The notes: generated by a model from the sequence alone, not told the origin. Counted from the stretch's first letter, positions 14,168 to 63,208 are shown. The stretch: DNA of 64,000 bases from Bacilli bacterium (GCA_017460175.1 JAFUBO010000005.1:85082-149081), one strand, 5' to 3'. Program-made: numbers and translations.

Positions 14168-14884
14168 ATGAAGAAGAATGGTTTTACATTTGCAGAATTA
14201 CTTGCCATGTTAGTAGTATTGGGAATATTAATGTTAATAGCTATTCCTAATATTAGCGGTATGTTAAAAAATCAAAGAGTTAATAGTTTAAAGGCTGATT
14301 TAACTAATATGGTTGAAACTGCTAAAATAAAAGGAAGTAAAGAGAATATTAAACCTAAAAATGGGGAATGTTATGTATTTACATTAAATTATCTAAATGA
14401 TGATGGTAATATTGAAAAAGGACCTAATGGTGGTCTATACAATCAATTTGATTCATTAGTTTTATATACTCGTGAAGGAAGTAGATATAAATACTATGTT
14501 AGATTATTAGAAAGTTACAAAGAAAAGTATACGGGTATTTCATTTAGAGATGGTGAAGTAATTAAAAATATTGAAAATAGTGATATAGAAACAATAGAAA
14601 ATGAAATTGGATTGACAAAAAATGATACTTTAGCAACTGCTGTTCCAAAATTAAATTCATTTGGTAGTATTTCTTCTAAATGTAGTAGTGGAATAAAAGG
14701 TTATTATTCTGGAGAAGCCGGTTGTACTATATATAATGGTCATTATTATGATGCAAATGGAAATGCAGTTTCAGAAAATCAATATAAGGCGTCATGTTTA
14801 CGTTGTACTATATATGATGGTGAGTATTATGATAATCGTGGTAATGTAGTATCAGAAGAAGAATATCATGAGTTATGTTCATAA
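14168..14884 (+). CDS. Type IV prepilin-like protein with two C-terminal Cys/Tyr motif repeats
   Basis: A 238-residue prepilin: KKNG|FTFAELLAMLVVLGILM carries the prepilin-peptidase cleavage motif and +5 Glu, followed by the membrane and assembly helix. The middle part is pilin-like and not assignable. The C-terminus has two tandem units of the pattern C-T-I-Y-x-G-x-Y-Y-D-x-x-G-x-x-V-S-E-x-x-Y-x-x-x-C (residues about 186-237). It is followed 100 bases later by another prepilin gene with its own promoter, so it may be a minor or adhesive pilin (inference). Confidence 0.87.
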   Translation: MKKNGFTFAELLAMLVVLGILMLIAIPNISGMLKNQRVNSLKADLTNMVETAKIKGSKENIKPKNGECYVFTLNYLNDDGNIEKGPNGGLYNQFDSLVLYTREGSRYKYYVRLLESYKEKYTGISFRDGEVIKNIENSDIETIENEIGLTKNDTLATAVPKLNSFGSISSKCSSGIKGYYSGEAGCTIYNGHYYDANGNAVSENQYKASCLRCTIYDGEYYDNRGNVVSEEEYHELCS

Positions 14885-14927
14885 AATGACAAATAATGTC
14901 AAAAAAATCAAATTTAATTAAAAAAAG

Positions 14928-14956
14928 TTGTAAAGAAAATTAAAGCATGATAACAT
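14928..14956 (+). promoter_or_regulatory. Promoter for the 184-residue prepilin gene
   Basis: TTGTAA (14928-14933), 17-base spacer, TAACAT (14951-14956), 35 bases before the ATG. Confidence 0.5.
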
Positions 14957-14991
14957 TTAAGTATAAGAAAATATGAAAGAGAGTGAAAGAA

Positions 14992-15546
14992 ATGAAGAAA
15001 ATAAATAGAAAAGGTTTTACATTAATAGAGTTATTGGCTGTTATTACTATTATGGGTATATTATTAATTGTAGCAATTCCAGCAATTACAAGAACAATTG
15101 AAAATTCAAGACGTGATACATTTGCAGATATTTCAAAAACATATCTTAATACAGTAAGAAATGCTGTATTAGAGGATGAACTAACATGTGGTGATAAAAG
15201 CGTTGCTGCTACAGGTGATGGTACATATTACTATAAATTAGATAGTACAAAAGAATCTACTACAGATCTTATTGAACAAGGTGGTACTTCTTCATGGAGT
15301 AATGCTGAAGTTAAAGGTTATGTTAAATGGGTAAAAGCGACAAAAAAAGAAGAAGGAAAAGCAGAAAAAGTAACAACAACTTACTATGTAATGTTAGTAG
15401 ATGCTGGTGGTCATGGTATTGAAAATGAAACTGAAGAAAAAATTATAAGCAGAGCAAAAGTAAGTACTAAGACTTCAACAACAGCAGCTACTGAAGAGGC
15501 TAATTTCCCATATCCAGAAAGTGGAACTGTATGTACTTTAAAATAA
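14992..15546 (+). CDS. Type IV prepilin (major-pilin-sized)
   Basis: A 184-residue protein starting KKINRKG|FTLIELLAVITIMGIL, a textbook prepilin cleavage site with +5 Glu and long N-terminal helix. The C-terminal half has strands and a single pair of Cys residues (in ELTCGD and near the end, TVCTLK), which could form the pilin D-loop disulphide. I chose ATG 14992; the GTG at 14983 overlaps the AGAGAGTG purine stretch. Its own promoter and strong terminator make it monocistronic, and its size makes it the best candidate in the window for a major pilin (inference). Confidence 0.88.
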   Translation: MKKINRKGFTLIELLAVITIMGILLIVAIPAITRTIENSRRDTFADISKTYLNTVRNAVLEDELTCGDKSVAATGDGTYYYKLDSTKESTTDLIEQGGTSSWSNAEVKGYVKWVKATKKEEGKAEKVTTTYYVMLVDAGGHGIENETEEKIISRAKVSTKTSTTAATEEANFPYPESGTVCTLK

Positions 15547-31159: not shown

Positions 31160-32638
31160 TTAGTTTAATTTTTGTAATTGATTATTTGGTACAACTGGTT
31201 GTACTTGTTGTACTTGTTGAACTGGTTTAACTTGTTGTACTTGTTGTTGTACTTGTTGAACTGGTTTAACTTGTTGTAATTGTTGTTGTACTTGTTGAAC
31301 TGGTTTAACTTGTTGTTGATTTGGTGTAGTAATTGTTTGTTGTACAACTGGTTGTATTTTAGTTTTTGTTATTTCATTTTCATAATTTTCATCATCTTCG
31401 TCTTCTATTTCAATAATACGATATATTTCTTCAAAAGATGTTTTTCCTTCTAAACATTTAATTAAAGCATCTTGTAACATAGTTATAGTATTGCCACTAT
31501 ATACCATTTTAGCAAAATCCTTTTTTTCTAATTTTTCATTACTTAGAGAATCACGGATGTCATCATCTATTTCAAGTACTTCTTGAACAGCTAAACGACC
31601 ATGATAACCGTTACGACAATGTGGACATCCTTTAGGATTAGCATCCCAAACTTTTTGAACGTCCATATTCATATATTTTTTAAATACCTTTTTCTCATAT
31701 TGTGTTGTGGCTCTTTGAAATCTACAATGAGGACATAACATTTTAGCTAGTCTTTGAGAAATAATACCTGTCAAAGCAGTAGATAATAAATATCTTTCAA
31801 CATCCATATCTAATAAACGTTCTACTGTTGCTAGAGTGTTATTTGTGTGAATTGTAGATAAAACTAAATGACCTGTAATAGATGCACGAACAGCAATTTT
31901 GGCTGTTTCAGAGTCACGAATTTCTCCAATTAGTATGATATTTGGATCTTGACGTAATATAGATCGAAGTGCAGTACCAAATGTCATTCCAATTTCAGAA
32001 TTTACTTGAACTTGATTTACTCCTTCAATATTCATTTCAATTGGATCTTCAACAGTAATAATATTAGTTTCTGGTTTGTTTAATTCTTGTAGAATAGAGT
32101 AAGTTGTTGTAGATTTACCTGAACCAGTAGCACCGGTAGTTAAAATAATACCATTAGGTATATTCATCATTCTTCTAACTTTCTCTAAATTTTTAGGATG
32201 AAAATCTAAAGTATCGACACCTTTTAAACTACGTGAATAATCTAAAATACGAATAACTATTTTTTCTCCTTCATTTAATGGTAGTGATGATACACGCATA
32301 TCTAAGTCCATACCACCAAATTCACCTTTAATCGCTCCATCTTGTGGAAGACGTGATTCAGTAATATTCATATTAGCAAGTAGTTTAAGTCTGGTAGTTA
32401 AATTTTTTTCGTAAGCTTTAGGAACAAAAGTATAATCTTGGCAATCACCATCAATTCTAAATCGAACCATCATTCCATCTTCTCTTGGATCGAAATGAAT
32501 ATCACTTGAATTGTGTTTTGCAGCAGAAATAATGATATAATCTGCAATTTGAGTAACAGGTGTTTTTGTGAAGTCAAAAGACACCATGAAATTTTTGTTC
32601 TTAGTTTGTACACTATTGACATCAAATTGAACCATCAT
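31160..32638 (-). CDS. pilB: Type IV pilus/secretion assembly ATPase PilB (GspE family) with Gln/Val-rich repeat tail
   Basis: Cytoplasmic hexameric ATPase that powers pilin polymerisation. The 492-residue protein has SSDIHFDPRE (44-53), Walker A TGATGSGKST (168-177), Walker B NIILIGE (233-239), the His box HLVLSTIHTNN, and two CxxC pairs (302/305 and 338/341) of the GspE zinc domain. It lacks the N-terminal GspE_N domain. The last 60 or so residues are Gln/Val/Pro repeats of about 13 residues (QQVKPVQQVQQQ) not seen in typical PilB. AAAGGGG precedes ATG 32638. It diverges from two prepilin genes. Confidence 0.95.
   Translation of the reverse strand: MMVQFDVNSVQTKNKNFMVSFDFTKTPVTQIADYIIISAAKHNSSDIHFDPREDGMMVRFRIDGDCQDYTFVPKAYEKNLTTRLKLLANMNITESRLPQDGAIKGEFGGMDLDMRVSSLPLNEGEKIVIRILDYSRSLKGVDTLDFHPKNLEKVRRMMNIPNGIILTTGATGSGKSTTTYSILQELNKPETNIITVEDPIEMNIEGVNQVQVNSEIGMTFGTALRSILRQDPNIILIGEIRDSETAKIAVRASITGHLVLSTIHTNNTLATVERLLDMDVERYLLSTALTGIISQRLAKMLCPHCRFQRATTQYEKKVFKKYMNMDVQKVWDANPKGCPHCRNGYHGRLAVQEVLEIDDDIRDSLSNEKLEKKDFAKMVYSGNTITMLQDALIKCLEGKTSFEEIYRIIEIEDEDDENYENEITKTKIQPVVQQTITTPNQQQVKPVQQVQQQLQQVKPVQQVQQQVQQVKPVQQVQQVQPVVPNNQLQKLN
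31195..31325 (-). repeat. 39-bp tandem repeat encoding QVKPVQQVQQ units
   Basis: Three imperfect in-frame copies of about 39 bases inside the 3' end of pilB. The plus strand shows a recurring mix of TTGTTGTACTTGTTGAACTG and GGTTTAACTTG. The low complexity and in-frame unit make copy-number slippage likely. Confidence 0.8.
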
Positions 32639-32681
32639 TTCAACCCCTTTGTCTACTTTTTATGGTATTTTACTAAAATAT

Positions 32682-32691
32682 ATTATATAAT
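32682..32691. promoter_or_regulatory. Palindromic -10 shared by pilB and the divergent prepilin gene
   Basis: ATTATATAAT is its own reverse complement and gives a TATAAT on each strand, about 37 bases before the pilin start and about 44 before the pilB start. No clear -35 seen on either side. Confidence 0.4.
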
Positions 32692-32727
32692 ACTTTTAGA
32701 AGAATATCAAGGAGAGGAATGGTTAAA

Positions 32728-33324
32728 ATGAAAAAAAATAATTCATCTGGATTTGTACTTGCTGAAACTCTTGTTGTAACTGTCTTTTTAATGGTAATTT
32801 TTGGACTTATTTATAGAAATTTTGTACCTTTAATTGGTGAATATGAAAAAAGAGAAAACTATGATAGTGTTGATGGAAAGTATTCTGCTTATTTAATAAA
32901 AAGAATGATAGAAGATTCTTCTTATGATATTCCTAGTACGAAAACTCAGAATTTTACAGATAAGGGATTTGTACAATTTGAATGTAGTGATATTACTTCT
33001 GATAACGAAAAAAGAAATTATTGTATTAAAATTGTTAGAAATTTAGAAGTAAACGGTTGTGATGATAATGGTAATAATTGTGAAATATATATTACAAGGT
33101 ATAGATTAAACAATGCATCAGATACTTCTAAAGTTTGGTTTAAACAAACTGTAAAAAAAGAAAAAAGTTTATTTCGTTCTGGGTTTAGAGATTATATAGA
33201 ATCTTTACCTGATTATTCGGCAGAATCATTAAATTATGCAAATTATCGTGTTATTATATGTTTTAAAAATACTAAGGGTAATAATAATTATTATTCTTAT
33301 GCCACAATTGAGGTGAGTCGTTAA
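32728..33324 (+). CDS. Minor prepilin-like protein
   Basis: A 198-residue protein with a prepilin signal, KKNNSSG|FVLAETLVVTVFLMVIF, including the +5 Glu, then a helix and a globular part with four Cys residues (C-S-D, N-Y-C, G-C-D, N-C-E) that could form disulphides. I chose ATG 32728; ATG 32719 is too close to GGAGAGG (32711-32717). It overlaps the next prepilin gene by one base and diverges from pilB, so it is probably a pilus component. Resembles GspI/GspJ or ComG-type minor pseudopilins in size. Confidence 0.82.
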   Translation: MKKNNSSGFVLAETLVVTVFLMVIFGLIYRNFVPLIGEYEKRENYDSVDGKYSAYLIKRMIEDSSYDIPSTKTQNFTDKGFVQFECSDITSDNEKRNYCIKIVRNLEVNGCDDNGNNCEIYITRYRLNNASDTSKVWFKQTVKKEKSLFRSGFRDYIESLPDYSAESLNYANYRVIICFKNTKGNNNYYSYATIEVSR

Positions 33325-33941
33325 TGAAAATGAATAATAAGGGTATTACAACAATTGAGGTTATTGTATGTTTTGTATTGATTTCAATTATAACTGTATC
33401 TTTATATACTACTGTTTCTAATTTTAATGAGAAAAAGATAATTGAGGGTTATAAAGAAGAAATATATGATTATAAAAATATATTAACTAAGGATATTCAA
33501 GATGATTTTATTAAAATAGGAATTGCTAATGCAAAGTATGAGAAAACAACAGAAGGTAGTAAAAATATATATACTGTTACATGTATTTTAAAAGATGGAA
33601 CGACACGTAAATTAGTTGTAGAACAGTTATTAGCTAAGAGTTCTTATCATACAGAAGGTGTAACAGATGCTGATGATTATTTTATGATTAAATATGGAAA
33701 AAGTGATGATTTAATTGAGTATCCTATACCTGAATTGGGATATTCAGAAAATGAAAGTGGTCATAAAGTTCAAGATTTATCTATTAATACTGTTTCTATT
33801 AGTATAGATAATGAAAATGTATTATCTATATACATTGGTTTTTATCATCCTGATCTTGATACAAAATATGGAATAAGTATAGTAAGCCCAATAAACTATA
33901 CTTTTAGTGGAGCAGAGGGTACAACTCCATGGAATTATTAA
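33324..33941 (+). CDS. Minor prepilin-like protein
   Basis: A 205-residue protein beginning MKMNNKG|ITTIEVIVCFVLISIITV: Ile replaces Phe at +1, but Glu at +5 and the hydrophobic helix are kept. The remainder has strands and one extracellular Cys (YTVTCILKDG). The ATG overlaps the preceding stop codon (TAATG) with GAGGTGA eight bases before. A second ATG at 33330 is possible. It forms a two-gene unit with the previous prepilin, next to pilB on the other strand. Confidence 0.8.
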   Translation: MKMNNKGITTIEVIVCFVLISIITVSLYTTVSNFNEKKIIEGYKEEIYDYKNILTKDIQDDFIKIGIANAKYEKTTEGSKNIYTVTCILKDGTTRKLVVEQLLAKSSYHTEGVTDADDYFMIKYGKSDDLIEYPIPELGYSENESGHKVQDLSINTVSISIDNENVLSIYIGFYHPDLDTKYGISIVSPINYTFSGAEGTTPWNY

Positions 33942-45308: not shown

Positions 45309-45336
45309 AAAAAGTTGTTGTATACAACTTTTTTTC
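45309..45336 (+). terminator. SDR-gene terminator
   Basis: AAAAAGTTGT (45309-45318), five-base loop, ACAACTTTTT (45324-45333) and further T's. Confidence 0.85.
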
Positions 45337-45397: not shown

Positions 45398-45910
45398 GTG
45401 ACTGATGATAATAAAAAAGAGGAAAAACTAGATTTTAAATATAATAATCTATTAATAGAAAACACATTTAAAGACAAAATAAACTCTTCATCAATATCAA
45501 AAGAAAAAATGGTAAAGTTAATACAATTTGAAGAACAAAAACAATTAAGAAAACTTGAAAAAATAAAAGAAGCTTTAAAAGATAAAAATCCGAAAAAAGA
45601 AGAAAAAGAATATTTTGATATTTTTGGTTGTTTTACAGAAAAAGCTAAGATAGAGTTGGAAGCAAAATATATTAAATCAAAGGTTCTTACTGAACAAGAC
45701 AAATATAGTTTTCATCCAAATTTTGTTATAAATATGAATGTGGTTAGACATATTTTAGATATTATAGATAGAATAGGTCCTAATGATGTAGAAGATATTA
45801 AACAAGCTTTAATTCTTATAGAACTTGATTTTGGATTAGATATAGCATTTTTTTCAGAAGTAGATAATGTTTATAAATTAAAAAAGAATGACATTAAACC
45901 AGGTAGATAG
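45398..45910 (+). CDS. Unknown protein, first gene of a four-gene unknown operon
   Basis: A 170-residue protein starting at GTG 45398 after TTGGAGGTG. No family recognised. The N-terminal half is very charged (Lys/Glu) and probably helical or coiled coil; the C-terminal half (PNFVINMNVVRHILDIIDRIG onward, in part) looks compact and helical. No membrane segment. It is followed 14 bases later by a 635-residue coiled-coil protein, and its terminator-isolated 5' side shows this is the operon start. Confidence 0.7.
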   Translation: MTDDNKKEEKLDFKYNNLLIENTFKDKINSSSISKEKMVKLIQFEEQKQLRKLEKIKEALKDKNPKKEEKEYFDIFGCFTEKAKIELEAKYIKSKVLTEQDKYSFHPNFVINMNVVRHILDIIDRIGPNDVEDIKQALILIELDFGLDIAFFSEVDNVYKLKKNDIKPGR

Positions 45911-45924
45911 ATAGGGGATGTACT

Positions 45925-47832
45925 ATGGAAGAAATAATACAAATAATAGAAGATCAAATAAATGAATTAATCGAAAGTCAAGAAAAGAATAAAGAATATA
46001 TAAGACAGCTTGAAGAGTTAAAACAAAGGATAAATAGTTACAGAGAAAATCCAAATATAATTGATTCAAATGAATATGCTTTCAAAGAAGATTTTTCTGA
46101 TGAAAATGTTGAATCAATTATTGCTTTAAAAGGATTATATGAATATAAAGAAGAACCACAAGTAAGTAGTGCTTTAGAGTATCTAGATAAATTAGTAACT
46201 AAAAAACTAGATTCGATAGATAAAGAAATTAGTCAATACGACGATAATTTAGAAAATAAAATAAATGAGTATAATGATATTTTAAATTTATTGAAAAATT
46301 ATAATGATAGACAATATATTACTTTAGAACAAATAAATAAAATAAAAGAAATAGTTGGTAGTAAACAAGTTTTATTAAAACTATATAGTATAGTAGTTAT
46401 TAATAATTCAACTATAGAAAATGAGAAAAGTATAAGCAGAAATGATGAAGTATTGCCTATTGAAGTTGTTGAAGATTTAGATAATAGAAGAGCTAGTATA
46501 AATGTTACTCAAGAACAAATAGATGAAAAGAAAGTTAAAATAGAAGAATATTTAAATAGAATAAATTATTTCTTAAATAATAGTGAATATAAAGAAATGA
46601 ATGTTGATTTATATAATATTTCTTCAAGAATTATGAATTATGCTAAAGAAGTTTTAGAAAGAGAAGATATAGAATTAGATGTATTTGATGTTGTAGAAAA
46701 TGATATGGTGGCAGATGATATCAAATGGTTAGAAGATAATTATCTTAAATTAGGAATTGTTAAAGCACTGTTATATGCTTATGAAAATAATGATATTCAA
46801 CAAGTAAAAGAATTATTAGAAATATATAAAATAAATCCAACTAATGATATAAAAGATTATCTTGAATTAGAAGGTTATAAAGAATATTTTGATATATTAT
46901 CATTATTAGAAACTAAATATAATGCAAAAGAAAAACTTACTTCTGTAATAGGAATAAATTATGATGATGTTAAAAATCTAAGTGATAGATCAAATCTTCA
47001 AGATGATACATATCTTTTACAAATTATATATAAAGATATTGTAGAATTGTTAAATGATAGAACGATGAACGATGAAATAAAAGGTAAACTTGATGAATTA
47101 ATTAAACGAGCTAATAAGATACTTGAAAGTTATGGAGAAGTTATTAAAATAACTGTAGAAAAAGATGAAATTGCTGATCATTATGGAAGCTATGATAATT
47201 ATATAGTATTTTATGATGAGAATAGTTTTATGGAATCTTATGATGAATTAAGAAATGAACATCGTGAAATGGCAGCTGCTTTATCAAGTGATGTTTCTAG
47301 AAAAATTAATAAACTAATAGGAACAGAATTACCTAAACTTATAGCTGATGATGATTGTGCTCATAATATACATGTAAAAAGAAATACACCTAATTCATAT
47401 GAGATTTTAGCTGTTAGAAAAGGAAAAACTAGATTATCATATAAAGTAATTGAAGATGCGTATGTAACAGATGAAAATGGAAGAAAACATCCAATTATAA
47501 TGGTAATCCATTCTTGCTTTGGGGAAGCTGATGGTCGTTCGAAGAGTACTAATTTATTAAAAGGTATTAAAATATTTGAAAAAATTGAATTAGTTAAAGA
47601 TGAAAATGGTAAAACAAGATATGATAGATTGAAAGAAATATTTACAGTTGGTAAAGATGAACATATTATAAGTAAAGAAGCTCAAAAAGAACTAGAAAAA
47701 GCTTTAAATATAATTAAAAAGGTTCAAGAAGATTCTTTACAGAATCGTGATGAAAATTATATAGAAGAATTACTGGATGAAGAAATTGAAGAAGATAAAG
47801 AATTAGGAGGTAATGGACATGGAAGAAAATAA
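45925..47832 (+). CDS. Large coiled-coil protein with possible RelE/ParE-like C-terminal region
   Basis: A 635-residue cytoplasmic protein. Residues 1-420 are mostly charged helix with coiled-coil character, including repeated Glu/Lys/Asn-rich segments. Residues about 440-555 differ: a pair of helices (ELRNEHREMAAALSS, RKINKLIGTELPKLI) then strands YEILAVRKGKTRLSYKVIED and IIMVIHSCFG. This order resembles the RelE/ParE toxin fold (helices, then YExR-x-G-x-x-R-x-x-Y, then IxxLxxF), but the match is weak. The acidic tail overlaps the next gene. ATG follows AGGGGATG. Not recognised as a known system. Confidence 0.7.
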   Translation: MEEIIQIIEDQINELIESQEKNKEYIRQLEELKQRINSYRENPNIIDSNEYAFKEDFSDENVESIIALKGLYEYKEEPQVSSALEYLDKLVTKKLDSIDKEISQYDDNLENKINEYNDILNLLKNYNDRQYITLEQINKIKEIVGSKQVLLKLYSIVVINNSTIENEKSISRNDEVLPIEVVEDLDNRRASINVTQEQIDEKKVKIEEYLNRINYFLNNSEYKEMNVDLYNISSRIMNYAKEVLEREDIELDVFDVVENDMVADDIKWLEDNYLKLGIVKALLYAYENNDIQQVKELLEIYKINPTNDIKDYLELEGYKEYFDILSLLETKYNAKEKLTSVIGINYDDVKNLSDRSNLQDDTYLLQIIYKDIVELLNDRTMNDEIKGKLDELIKRANKILESYGEVIKITVEKDEIADHYGSYDNYIVFYDENSFMESYDELRNEHREMAAALSSDVSRKINKLIGTELPKLIADDDCAHNIHVKRNTPNSYEILAVRKGKTRLSYKVIEDAYVTDENGRKHPIIMVIHSCFGEADGRSKSTNLLKGIKIFEKIELVKDENGKTRYDRLKEIFTVGKDEHIISKEAQKELEKALNIIKKVQEDSLQNRDENYIEELLDEEIEEDKELGGNGHGRK

Positions 47833-49840
47833 AGAATTAGATGTTTTAACCTTAGTTAATTCTTATAATGATAAGTTAATTCAAAGAAGAGAACGTAATA
47901 ATAATAGTAGTAGTATACTAAAAAAAATAATTAATGGTAATGATTTGACTGAAGAAGAAAAAGAAAATATATTAAAATCTTTTCCTAGTTTTGATGAAGG
48001 TATGTTTAAAAGAATTTATGCTATTAATCAAATAATGGAAAGGGGATTTGAATTATATTCTGAACAACAAGAACAATTAAATATATATAATCAAATAATT
48101 TCAACAATTGCTGAATCATTGGAACAAATAAGTGCTAGTATGAAAAATATTCAAGAAATATTAAGCAAAATAAAATTAAATGAGCATCTAAATCCAGATA
48201 TATTAAATTCATTAGTAGATGGTATTTTAGATAAATCTTGTGAACTTAGTTTAGATGATAAAATAAAATTAATGGAAGAATTAATCAAATATAATGCTAA
48301 TTGTAAAATTATTGGTTCTGATAATAAAACTAATAATAATGATATAAATGAAGGTACTAGAAAGCATGTGGTTAATTTAAATCTTACAGAACATGAAATA
48401 AAAGATTTAGATGAAAAAATAAAATTTATTTTATCAAAATATGATTATGTATATGAAGATTTAGATGAATATAGTAAAAACTATTTAAGAAAAGCTGGAT
48501 ATGAAAATTTAGATACTATTGATAAAGTATTAGAGACATTAATAAATAATGGTATTAGAATTGATACTGCTAAAATGATAAGCAGTGGAGATGAATTGAT
48601 AGATGAGTATAAGAATCCAATTAATCTTGTATTTTGTAAGATTATAGTATCTCCTAATACTATTGAATTATTTAATGATTTAAAAGAAGATTTTAAATCA
48701 ATTAAGTTAGAAGAATTTATTAAATTTATTAGGGAGAATCCTAGAATTTTAATTCCTAATAGTAAGAAAAGTTCTAAGTCTTCTTTAGGAGAAAGTTTAA
48801 ATGAAGAATATGTAGGTGGATTAAATACTAGTTATAGAGAAATTAAAACATTCTTAGATAGTAAAAATATAAGTTTTAATTATGTATTTAAGAAAGTAAA
48901 AACTATGTTATTGAAACCAAATTCTGATAATGTTAAAAGAAATTATAATATTTATAATGATGTATATAATATTCCGTTTATTACTGATAATACTCCAAGA
49001 GATGAAGAAGGTAAATATAAACCAGGAATGTTATCGGCTTTAAATGCTGATACTAATACAATAGTTGAAAATATTGATAAACTTATTGAGTCATCAGTAA
49101 CAGGATATGAATATGTTAGAAATAATCCTACTATATCATTATCTATAACTACACCAAAAGAACTTGATAATTTATATAAAATTAAAATTTCAGAGAAAGT
49201 AAAATATCCTAAAGAAAATAATAAATATGATAATCATATTTTCTTTACAAATGGTAAGAAAGGTATTCAATTACGCAAGAGTAGTAGTGCTGTTGAAGAT
49301 GAAGAATTAAAGGTGATTCTTGATTATACATTAGAAGAAGCACAAAAAGTATTTGATCCTACATCTATAGATAACATTAGTGGTAATTGGAAAAAAAGAC
49401 AATTATTTGATGTTAGTAGGGATGAAGAAGAAAATAATTCTAATATAAAAATTAAGAGGGTAATTGGAAGATTTAAAGAACTTGCTAAGGATGAAGCAAG
49501 TATAACTAAAAAATGGGAAGTAAATCCAGAAGTAATAAATAATCCTTATATTAGGTATTTAGAAGATAATTGTAGAGTTGATTCTAATGATATGGCTTAT
49601 GATTATATTTATAAGATCAATGATGATTCTAGTGATACTTATACAATTATTTCAAGAAAGAAAGTTTTAAGAATATTTGGTCAATTAATTAATCAAGGAA
49701 TAAGTGATGATGTAATGATTAAACTTGCGCTTTCTTATGAATCAATTATTAATGAAGCTGATGCTATTAATATATTGGTATTGGTAGATGAGATGCAAAA
49801 TAAGATTAATGAAAAATCATTGACTGGGGGTGTAAAATAA
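47819..49840 (+). CDS. Large helical protein of unknown function
   Basis: A 673-residue, Asn/Lys/Glu-rich protein without membrane segments. I chose ATG 47819, eight bases after AGGAGG; ATG 47813 is too close. It looks like helical repeats: loops with FIRENPRILIP (near residue 306) and YVRNNPTISLS recall the x-N-P-x-(I/L) turns of mTERF-like helical repeats, which is only a suggestion. The C-terminal third (IKRVIGRFKELAKDEASIT, YTIISRKKVLRIFGQLI) is another helical domain. It overlaps the 635-residue gene by 14 bases and touches the next gene. Confidence 0.7.
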   Translation: MEENKELDVLTLVNSYNDKLIQRRERNNNSSSILKKIINGNDLTEEEKENILKSFPSFDEGMFKRIYAINQIMERGFELYSEQQEQLNIYNQIISTIAESLEQISASMKNIQEILSKIKLNEHLNPDILNSLVDGILDKSCELSLDDKIKLMEELIKYNANCKIIGSDNKTNNNDINEGTRKHVVNLNLTEHEIKDLDEKIKFILSKYDYVYEDLDEYSKNYLRKAGYENLDTIDKVLETLINNGIRIDTAKMISSGDELIDEYKNPINLVFCKIIVSPNTIELFNDLKEDFKSIKLEEFIKFIRENPRILIPNSKKSSKSSLGESLNEEYVGGLNTSYREIKTFLDSKNISFNYVFKKVKTMLLKPNSDNVKRNYNIYNDVYNIPFITDNTPRDEEGKYKPGMLSALNADTNTIVENIDKLIESSVTGYEYVRNNPTISLSITTPKELDNLYKIKISEKVKYPKENNKYDNHIFFTNGKKGIQLRKSSSAVEDEELKVILDYTLEEAQKVFDPTSIDNISGNWKKRQLFDVSRDEEENNSNIKIKRVIGRFKELAKDEASITKKWEVNPEVINNPYIRYLEDNCRVDSNDMAYDYIYKINDDSSDTYTIISRKKVLRIFGQLINQGISDDVMIKLALSYESIINEADAINILVLVDEMQNKINEKSLTGGVK

Positions 49841-50146
49841 ATGAATAATTTATTAAAAATAGGTATAAGTCAAGAAACATTAGATGAGATGATTAGAGTT
49901 AATGGTTTACATAGAGTTGCATATTTAAATAAAGATTATAATATTGTATATCATATAAGAGATGCTTTAAAACAAATATTAATTACTGATGATAATATTA
50001 ATTCTTTATTGATAAATATGATAGATTTATTTTCTATGGATTACAGTAAGTTTATTTTTAAATTAAAAAATAGTAATTTAAAAGAAATATCTGATAATAT
50101 CAATTCTGATTATAATTATGCATTCGATATATTTTTAGATGATTAA
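49841..50146 (+). CDS. Small unknown protein, last gene of the operon
   Basis: A 101-residue helical, mildly acidic protein beginning MNNLLKIGISQETLDEMI; the ATG directly follows the stop codon of the previous gene, with GGGGGTG inside that gene as ribosome-binding site. No family recognised. Position at the end of the tightly packed set and before a hairpin terminator suggests it works with the two large proteins. Confidence 0.68.
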   Translation: MNNLLKIGISQETLDEMIRVNGLHRVAYLNKDYNIVYHIRDALKQILITDDNINSLLINMIDLFSMDYSKFIFKLKNSNLKEISDNINSDYNYAFDIFLDD

Positions 50147-50191: not shown

Positions 50192-50215
50192 AGTAGACTT
50201 TGTCTACTTTTTCTT
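50192..50215 (+). terminator. Terminator of the unknown operon
   Basis: AGTAGAC TTT GTCTACT (50192-50208) followed by a T-rich run. Confidence 0.75.
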
Positions 50216-50224
50216 TTTTTTATA

Positions 50225-62434: not shown

Positions 62435-63208
62435 ATGATGAAAAAGAATAATAAAAAAGGATTTACTTTAGTAGAATTATTATGTGTTATTGTAATACTA
62501 GGTTTATTAATAACAGGTTCTGTTCTAGCTATTACAAAAATGATTGAACATTCTAAGAAAAAAAGTATAGAAGTACAAGAAAAACTTGTAGTAAAAGCTT
62601 GTCAAAGTTATGTTCAAGATCATAGAGAAAAAGCTCCTAAAGTAGTTGGAGAAAGTAAAAATATTACTTTGAGAGAATTAAAGGAATATAAGTATTTAAC
62701 TGAAGATATTTATAATCCTAATAAAGAATCATGTATGGAAAATTCTTATGTCCTTGTTACTAGACAAGAGAATAAAGAATTAAAGTTTTTACCATATTTA
62801 TATTGTGGTAATGATTCAAATGAGACAGGAATGATAGTACCTGAGCCAACTGTTAAAGTGTTATTTATTGATGATAATAATGAGAATACTAATAATTCAA
62901 TATTTAATAATCTAGATGCTAGTAGAATCTATATAGAACTTACAGGTGGAAGTACAAAAAATGGAAATTTAATTTCACTTGATAAATATAATTTGTCTAT
63001 TTCTATGCGTACAAAAAAAGATAAAGAATTAAAAGAATACTATAATTCGGGACCAATTTATGTTAGTACAAAAGATACTGTAACTATAGATGATAAAATT
63101 ACTAAATATGTTAATGCATATGATGCTACTAGTATAAATATAACAGTAACTGCTAAAAATGTTTTTGGTGGTGTTAAAGAAACTACAAGTATTGCTCAAA
63201 TAAACTAA
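62435..63208 (+). CDS. Type IV prepilin-like protein
   Basis: A 257-residue prepilin: KKNNKKG|FTLVELLCVIVILGLLI with +5 Glu. The pilin-like middle (residues 40-130, three Cys) resembles the corresponding part of the giant prepilin at 1383, and the C-terminal region (ASRIYIELTGGSTKNGN ... ISMRTKKD, then ITVTAKNVFGG) looks like an Ig-type domain. ATG 62435 or 62438 are both possible after AGGTGAT. It has a near-consensus promoter and its own terminator. Confidence 0.85.
   Translation: MMKKNNKKGFTLVELLCVIVILGLLITGSVLAITKMIEHSKKKSIEVQEKLVVKACQSYVQDHREKAPKVVGESKNITLRELKEYKYLTEDIYNPNKESCMENSYVLVTRQENKELKFLPYLYCGNDSNETGMIVPEPTVKVLFIDDNNENTNNSIFNNLDASRIYIELTGGSTKNGNLISLDKYNLSISMRTKKDKELKEYYNSGPIYVSTKDTVTIDDKITKYVNAYDATSINITVTAKNVFGGVKETTSIAQIN

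Follow-up and report, generated by a model that had tools for sequence, protein, structure and literature searches.

A four-gene operon of uncultured gut Bacilli with a predicted mTERF-fold protein pair and a predicted RelE/HigB-fold partner

To our knowledge, proteins of the mTERF type had for a long time been described solely from mitochondria and chloroplasts. The pTERFs, their prokaryotic relatives, followed in 2024; they were presented as single DNA-binding proteins made of tandem repeats with detectable mTERF motifs. Nucleic-acid binding was shown for pTERF1 and pTERF2, with a Kd of 1.87 nM for the binding of pTERF1 to DNA (PMC11417379). The RelE/ParE (BECR-fold) superfamily, which includes HigB and multidomain toxins, is characterised by the RelE topology β-α-α-β-β-β-α as given by Gerdes (PMC11980606). 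TAC systems consist of a toxin-antitoxin pair complemented by a SecB-like chaperone (PMC6377645). In the gene set described here, a predicted mTERF-fold pair stands at the conserved centre of an operon of several genes and is often accompanied by a putative RelE/HigB-fold partner. Both folds are already known; what appears to be new is the system, a mTERF-fold pair with a RelE/HigB-fold partner in most copies, for which no described counterpart was found. The literature search yielded no paper joining mTERF, bacteria and toxin-antitoxin, and a single paper was found on mTERF-like proteins of prokaryotes, which deals with single DNA-binding proteins (PMC11417379).

The window, that is the whole stretch of 64,000 nucleotides analysed, has a G+C content of 25% and originates from a 0.99-Mb draft genome of six contigs. 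The features of the operon, which lies between an SDR gene and tkt, are as follows.

45309..45333, + strand: terminator-like hairpin with 10-bp arms, a 5-base loop and a T tail, between the SDR gene and the operon (sequence)
45398..45910, + strand: P1, 170 aa, GTG start, in no known family (ORF; counterparts in other P1-P2-P3-P4 loci)
45925..47832, + strand: P2, 635 aa, with an N-terminal helical module common with P3, a long helical middle and a predicted C-terminal RelE/HigB-fold domain
46270..46428, + strand: P2 aa 116-168, homologous to P3 aa 106-171, the shared N-terminal module (hhalign E 1.5e-5, probability 80%)
47188..47637, + strand: predicted RelE/HigB-fold domain of P2, aa 422-571 (AlphaFold model, structural alignment, sequence alignments)
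47819..49840, + strand: P3, 673 aa, with an N-terminal helical hairpin, a predicted mTERF-fold core and a conserved C-terminal IISRxKVLR motif
48386..49213, + strand: predicted mTERF-fold core of P3, aa 190-465 (pLDDT mostly 80-93; structural alignment)
49646..49672, + strand: P3 motif IISRKKVLR, aa 610-618 (conservation, 45 homologues)
49841..50146, + strand: P4, 101 aa, putative mTERF-repeat-like mini-protein, homologous to a P3 repeat
50192..50218, + strand: intrinsic terminator 3' of P4, stem-loop 50192-50208 plus T tail (terminator scanner)

A sequence-only reading of the window had described four packed genes of these lengths, bounded by terminators at 45309 and 50192, whose products could be placed in no nameable family. 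The packing is confirmed by the ORFs, by the spacing (a gap of 14 bases between P1 and P2, an overlap of 14 bases between P2 and P3 and no gap between P3 and P4) and by the Shine-Dalgarno-like sites present for all four genes; P3 measures 673 aa from an ATG with a good GGAGG site and 675 aa from an ATG six bases upstream. Both hairpins are real and only the second appears in the list of the terminator scanner, since the first, an inverted repeat that reads AAAAAGTTGT-TGTAT-ACAACTTTTT, has too few G-C pairs for the scanner rule of 3 G-C pairs. Third-position G+C in the four genes (7-11%) equals that of the window (10.4 +/- 1.9%), and they thus carry no compositional sign of recent import. Searches of Pfam, NCBIfam, PHROGs and PADLOC likewise gave no credible family match for any of the four proteins; weak library matches to pAgo, DUF445, REX1B and the like were treated as coiled-coil noise. 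The same reading took the two large proteins for long helical proteins of the coiled-coil type, a description that fits their long helical N-terminal parts but is incomplete, P2 ending in a predicted RelE/HigB-type fold and P3 having a predicted mTERF-type fold.

Relatives of the operon were not readily recognised. Searches with the single sequence of P2 or P3 found nothing credible in 35 other genomes of the genus or among viral contigs, phages and plasmids, and P2 likewise found nothing credible in 291 genomes of the taxonomic family or in 84,980 species; an orphan operon would have been implied by these searches alone. A weak match of P2 in one genome (G346) was judged by eye to be a chance hit to a coiled coil resembling the small exonuclease VII subunit, and a weak match of P3 in another (G386) a chance hit to an FtsK-like protein. 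A composite query of P1, P4 and the P2 C-terminus had no match in 38 genomes of the genus. With a longer composite query, run over 385 genomes, a faint match to P4 (E 2.6e-4) was obtained in two genomes of another genus, and both loci proved to be complete four-gene operons (146/675/613/100 aa and 161/656/597/98 aa), with the C-terminal IISRxKVLR motif common to their P3 proteins and the P3 of the window. The recurrence of the gene order and of similar lengths in other genera argues that the four-gene arrangement is not due to chance.

A P3 profile built from six copies recognised relatives in 71 of the 386 genomes of the family, and one built from 45 copies in 112 of 386, distributed over 58 of its 150 genera; about 100 genomes is a fair count of the P3 family, because some of the weakest matches cover only the coiled coil or contain stops. 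Between about a quarter and a third of the genomes in this large family of uncultured gut Bacilli, which we take to belong to the GTDB order RF39, thus carry the gene set. Genomes outside the taxonomic family were surveyed only lightly. A scan of one genome per species over the 84,980 species gave 25 loci, all in uncultured MAGs mostly labelled Bacilli, with 14 complete P1-P2-P3-P4 copies that partly come from the same genomes as the family survey. Records of the protein family are labelled as uncultured Bacilli or related Bacillota MAGs. Within one other genus the gene set occurs in four of the seven genomes, one of them carrying two copies. The suggestion that the operon is a self-contained, undescribed set with a patchy presence among relatives is therefore upheld, complete operons being found in other genera at other chromosomal sites and no known family covering them; profile matches that would place all four proteins in a known, unrelated family were looked for and none was found. 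The expected co-occurrence of all four genes holds for the core pair of P3 and P4 and does not hold for P1 and P2, which are exchangeable and replaced by other partners elsewhere. The proteins diverge so fast that the gene set is invisible to ordinary annotation.

The fold of P3 was examined on an AlphaFold model derived from 23 sequences (mean pLDDT 67.4, core mostly 80-93). The core superposes on human MTERF1 bound to DNA (3mvb; Z 10.3 over 258 residues, 7.1 A) and on a second MTERF1 entry (Z 9.3), which occupy ranks 1-2, and also on MTERF4 (Z 7.8 for 7of3 over 213 residues, then 7.5 and 7.1). Such Z values alone are insufficient for a helical protein, as helical models often score middling Z by chance, and a resemblance of the N-terminal 165 residues of P3 to helical hairpins such as CHMP3 (Z 8.6) was set aside as generic rather than homologous. 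Sequence comparisons provide evidence independent of the models. A profile of P4 aligns with that of P3 at E 4.7e-5; no other Pfam family is matched by as many P4 members as mTERF (weak matches in 7 of 42, best E 6.5e-4); and the Pfam mTERF model (PF02536), run over 328 genomes, strikes ORFs of the P3/P4 family in at least eight genomes. All eight of the mTERF-model sites of this kind that were opened are recognised by the P3 or P4 profiles, a set that is not a random sample because the sites were picked by ORF length or known coordinates. One P3 homologue among them (G267) scores 24.2 bits, above the curated mTERF cut-off of 23.1; P3 and P4 of the window have no Pfam mTERF match, and their families lie mostly below Pfam detection. 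Since the P4-P3 match, the Pfam tallies and the genome scan agree with the structural alignment, P3 is predicted to be a mitochondrial-termination-factor-like solenoid and P4 a short protein of the same repeat. Among 45 P3 sequences, Asp420, Glu424, Ser612 and Lys615 are invariant and Arg618 is conserved in about 95%. MTERF1 and MTERF4, on both of which the P3 core superposes, differ in being eukaryotic, organelle-targeted single proteins without a shared N-terminal module or a P4-like mini-protein. The pTERFs share with P3 and P4 the mTERF-type three-helix repeats and their occurrence in MAGs of uncultured gut Bacillota, and mTERF proteins above the cut-off are also encoded in genomes of the present family; in contrast, pTERFs were reported without operon partners or a RelE-like domain (PMC11417379).

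The model of P2, built from 22 sequences, has a mean pLDDT of 62.8 and of about 80 in the C-terminal domain, where the order of elements is β-α-α-β-β-β-α (E426-429, H432-445, H447-466, E494-499, E502-515, E521-532, H540-555). The best structural match is a Streptococcus pneumoniae toxin (6af4; Z 8.8 over 114 residues, 3.6 A), which together with 6af3 is presumably HigB, followed among others by Mycobacterium tuberculosis HigB1 (7awk, Z 8.1), RelE (4v7k, Z 6.9) and several ParE structures (Z 6-7). HigB-type toxins hold ranks 1-4, and of the 50 rows in the structural alignment about 24 are RelE/HigB/ParE-type chains. At the sequence level, a profile of 14 partner domains from other loci was compared with all PDB sequences and gave E. 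coli RelE in four of six matches, including the top three, at E 0.27-0.99, which are individually not significant; a conserved Arg stands in register with E. coli RelE in this alignment. In P2 it corresponds to Arg503, about 90% conserved, at the position that we take to be Arg61 of RelE. A Tyr near the position presumed to be Tyr87 is found only in compact homologues, and the other RelE catalytic residues are not uniformly kept in the P2 family. The P2 of the window has no match to curated RelE-type family models; among the partners, matches to Gp49, a RelE-type family, outnumber those to any other Pfam family (3 of 42, best E 0.0016), the best-scoring homologue reaching 18.9 bits, below the cut-off of 23.9. 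On the model, the C-terminus of P2 thus has a RelE/HigB/ParE fold. P2 resembles multidomain toxins of that superfamily in the fusion of the domain to a longer N-terminal part, and differs from members of the superfamily in its length of 635 aa, in the N-terminal helical module common with the operon neighbour, in the predicted mTERF-fold operon and in the absence of a recognisable antitoxin from the operon of the window. The P2 model also matches 8phj (Z 6.7), which we take to be Cami1, a ribosome-dependent RNase linked to CRISPR that carries a RelE-type domain; in both, an effector domain of RelE type would be coupled to a sensor, which in Cami1 is a CARF domain for cyclic oligoadenylate and here the predicted mTERF-fold partner. 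The N-terminal module common to P2 and P3 suggests that the two proteins pair.

The claims for the folds of P2 and P3 rest on models of modest confidence and on Z values near the range that helical proteins reach by chance. None of the window proteins matches RelE or mTERF significantly at the sequence level. In Foldseek searches with the full P2 and P3 models, nothing in the PDB scored better than E 0.4 and nothing viral better than 0.06; full-length profiles of the two proteins returned mostly coiled coils and helical bundles from the PDB, and a profile of the P3 core returned nothing useful. The composition of the four-gene unit and its predicted folds carry high confidence.

The neighbourhoods of P3 reveal several types of loci. 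P4 follows P3 directly in 41 of the 44 loci read, and a co-directional partner directly precedes P3 in 43 of 44; P3 and P4 are the conserved core of the gene set. Type A loci have the order P1-P2-P3-P4 of the window. In type B, a partner of 210-400 aa without a toxin-like domain precedes P3 and P4 in a neighbourhood common to several genera, and in type C a partner of ~480 aa and a ~65-aa HTH-like gene take this place. A compact type consists of a ~340-aa RelE-like partner and P3, with no P4 (L168-L170, L172-L174, L142, L145, L148); two of the compact loci (L145, L148) lie directly before dnaG-like and rpoD-like genes. P1 has counterparts in the other P1-P2-P3-P4 loci, and elsewhere it is absent or swapped for the ~65-aa HTH-like gene, which follows the toxin-like gene in about 10 loci. 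The RelE-like domain cannot be essential to the P3-P4 core, because some partners lack it (L118, L121, L124, L126, L128, L129, L131, L166). Copies of different type coexist in single genomes (G403, G355). The likeness to TAC systems lies in a toxin-type fold with extra operon members and, in one locus type, in the HTH-like gene right after the toxin-like gene; the difference is that P3 and P4 are predicted to have the mTERF fold rather than that of SecB, and that the antitoxin is only putative. Family scans detected no SecB-like protein among P1-P4, and P1 of the window showed no similarity to any antitoxin in the family libraries or PADLOC.

In the genus of the window, the gene content of the interval between the SDR gene and tkt changes from one genome to the next in almost all cases, and a PMR1-type P-type ATPase usually sits beside tkt; this ATPase was not found in the window's 94.6%-complete genome, where the operon stands at that spot instead. 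An earlier interpretation of the 870-aa protein beside tkt in relatives as ValS was dropped, the protein being a P-type ATPase. Genes for a ClpX-like AAA ATPase, HTH-AAA_28, GNAT, capsule-type and unknown proteins come and go in this interval (window:45309-50279, L042-L061). Housekeeping genes flank most of the related operons; a few have AbiD, DolB-like or further candidate defence genes nearby. When ten neighbours of related operons were tested for defence genes, four gave PADLOC-like matches, strong only for AbiD and PDC-S26; the AbiD-like abortive-infection gene (L158:3783-4709, E 5e-61) is two genes upstream of a related operon. Compared across three species of the other genus, the P2 and P3 proteins share 71-78% identity, against 85-100% for most flanking genes, and thus evolve faster than most of their neighbours, two flanking genes being equally variable.

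It is proposed, at what we consider an even chance for the whole with its mechanism, that P1-P4 constitute one functional unit around the mTERF-fold pair. By analogy with pTERF1, the P3-P4 solenoid would grip DNA or RNA, or a ribosome; P2 would join P3 through the common N-terminal module, and its RelE-like domain would cut or clamp RNA where P3 and P4 have chosen, while P1, or the HTH protein, may restrain the complex or its expression in the manner of an antitoxin. The specific form of a modular, nucleic-acid-addressed effector, in which a RelE-type nuclease is brought to its target by mTERF repeats that recognise specific DNA or RNA and the partners are exchangeable, is a doubtful one at present. 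The sequence-only reading had suggested structural, RNA-related or defence roles; an RNA-related or defence role is still a fair guess, and a structural one is less likely.

A role in defence against phages or in plasmid stability is possible on a tentative basis: P3 and P4 would sense foreign nucleic acid or its transcription and free the RelE-like domain of P2 from P1, so that translation stops in an abortive response of the toxin-antitoxin kind. The predicted RelE/HigB-type fold of the partner, the toxin-then-HTH gene order in one locus type, as in higBA, and the loci beside an AbiD gene and a DolB-like gene are consistent with this role, as are the distribution, patchy even within a genus, the differing chromosomal sites of the P1-P2-P3-P4 loci and the copies of different type within single genomes. 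However, most copies lie between housekeeping genes, none was found in the viral contigs, phages and plasmids searched, PADLOC has no credible match for P1-P4, and the persistence of partners without a RelE-like domain speaks against this role and against a simple toxin-antitoxin pair alike.

An alternative is an endogenous complex of this bacterial family for the control of nucleic acids, acting in transcription, on R-loops or in RNA decay as in the case of organelle mTERF proteins, with the RelE-like domain as an optional RNA-binding or RNase accessory; we regard it as possible to the same tentative degree. The P3-P4 pair keeps one neighbourhood across several genera in the locus type whose partner lacks the domain, and pTERF proteins bind DNA at nanomolar affinity (PMC11417379). 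In several genera, P3'-P4'-like pairs (P4-like protein of 95-101 aa) stand directly upstream of pcrA/UvrD, separate from the operon studied here (L191, L192, L193, L196), and in the window's genus the gene of a canonical mTERF-repeat protein (G021, L197:2767-3933) neighbours that of RNase HIII (L197:1462-2373), the two being separated by a second mTERF-like gene of 127 aa; it is these neighbours that raise transcription or R-loop management as an alternative. Against an endogenous role, the best profile did not find the gene set in about 70% of the genomes, close relatives included, a proportion in which fast divergence could hide copies.

It is improbable that the large proteins are long coiled coils serving cell structure or the cytoskeleton, without any function on nucleic acids and similar to the known folds only through chance resemblance of helical bundles: the long helical N-terminal parts and the middling Z values that helical models often reach would agree with it, whereas the RelE match concerns an alpha/beta fold and not a helical bundle, and mTERF leads, on independent evidence, the Pfam families matched by P4 and strikes P3/P4 loci in the genome scan. 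A remnant of a prophage or mobile element, compatible with the variable SDR-tkt site in the window's genus, is very improbable given the host-like composition and the lack of an integrase and of viral or plasmid relatives.

The operon opens a testable route to the function of the mTERF fold in bacteria and possibly to a modular, addressable system acting on RNA. Should the nucleic-acid-addressed effector be real, it would represent a bacterial targeting system unlike any known in defence or regulation, and one related to the mTERF machinery of organelles.

A few further observations concern the surroundings of the operon and the genomes of the family. Canonical pTERF-like mTERF-repeat proteins above the Pfam cut-off occur in 22 of 328 genomes of the family. 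Upstream of the operon, a 327-aa protein (window:43554-44537) shows by eye a transglutaminase-like Cys/His arrangement with no library match; several relatives retain it beside the SDR gene, with 35-45% identity. Elsewhere in the window, scattered pseudopilin-like genes and a PilB/GspE-like ATPase were recognised by eye (window:1374-4931, 14168-15546, 31160-33941, 62435-63208), which suggests that this small genome encodes a type IV pilus or an apparatus of the competence type.
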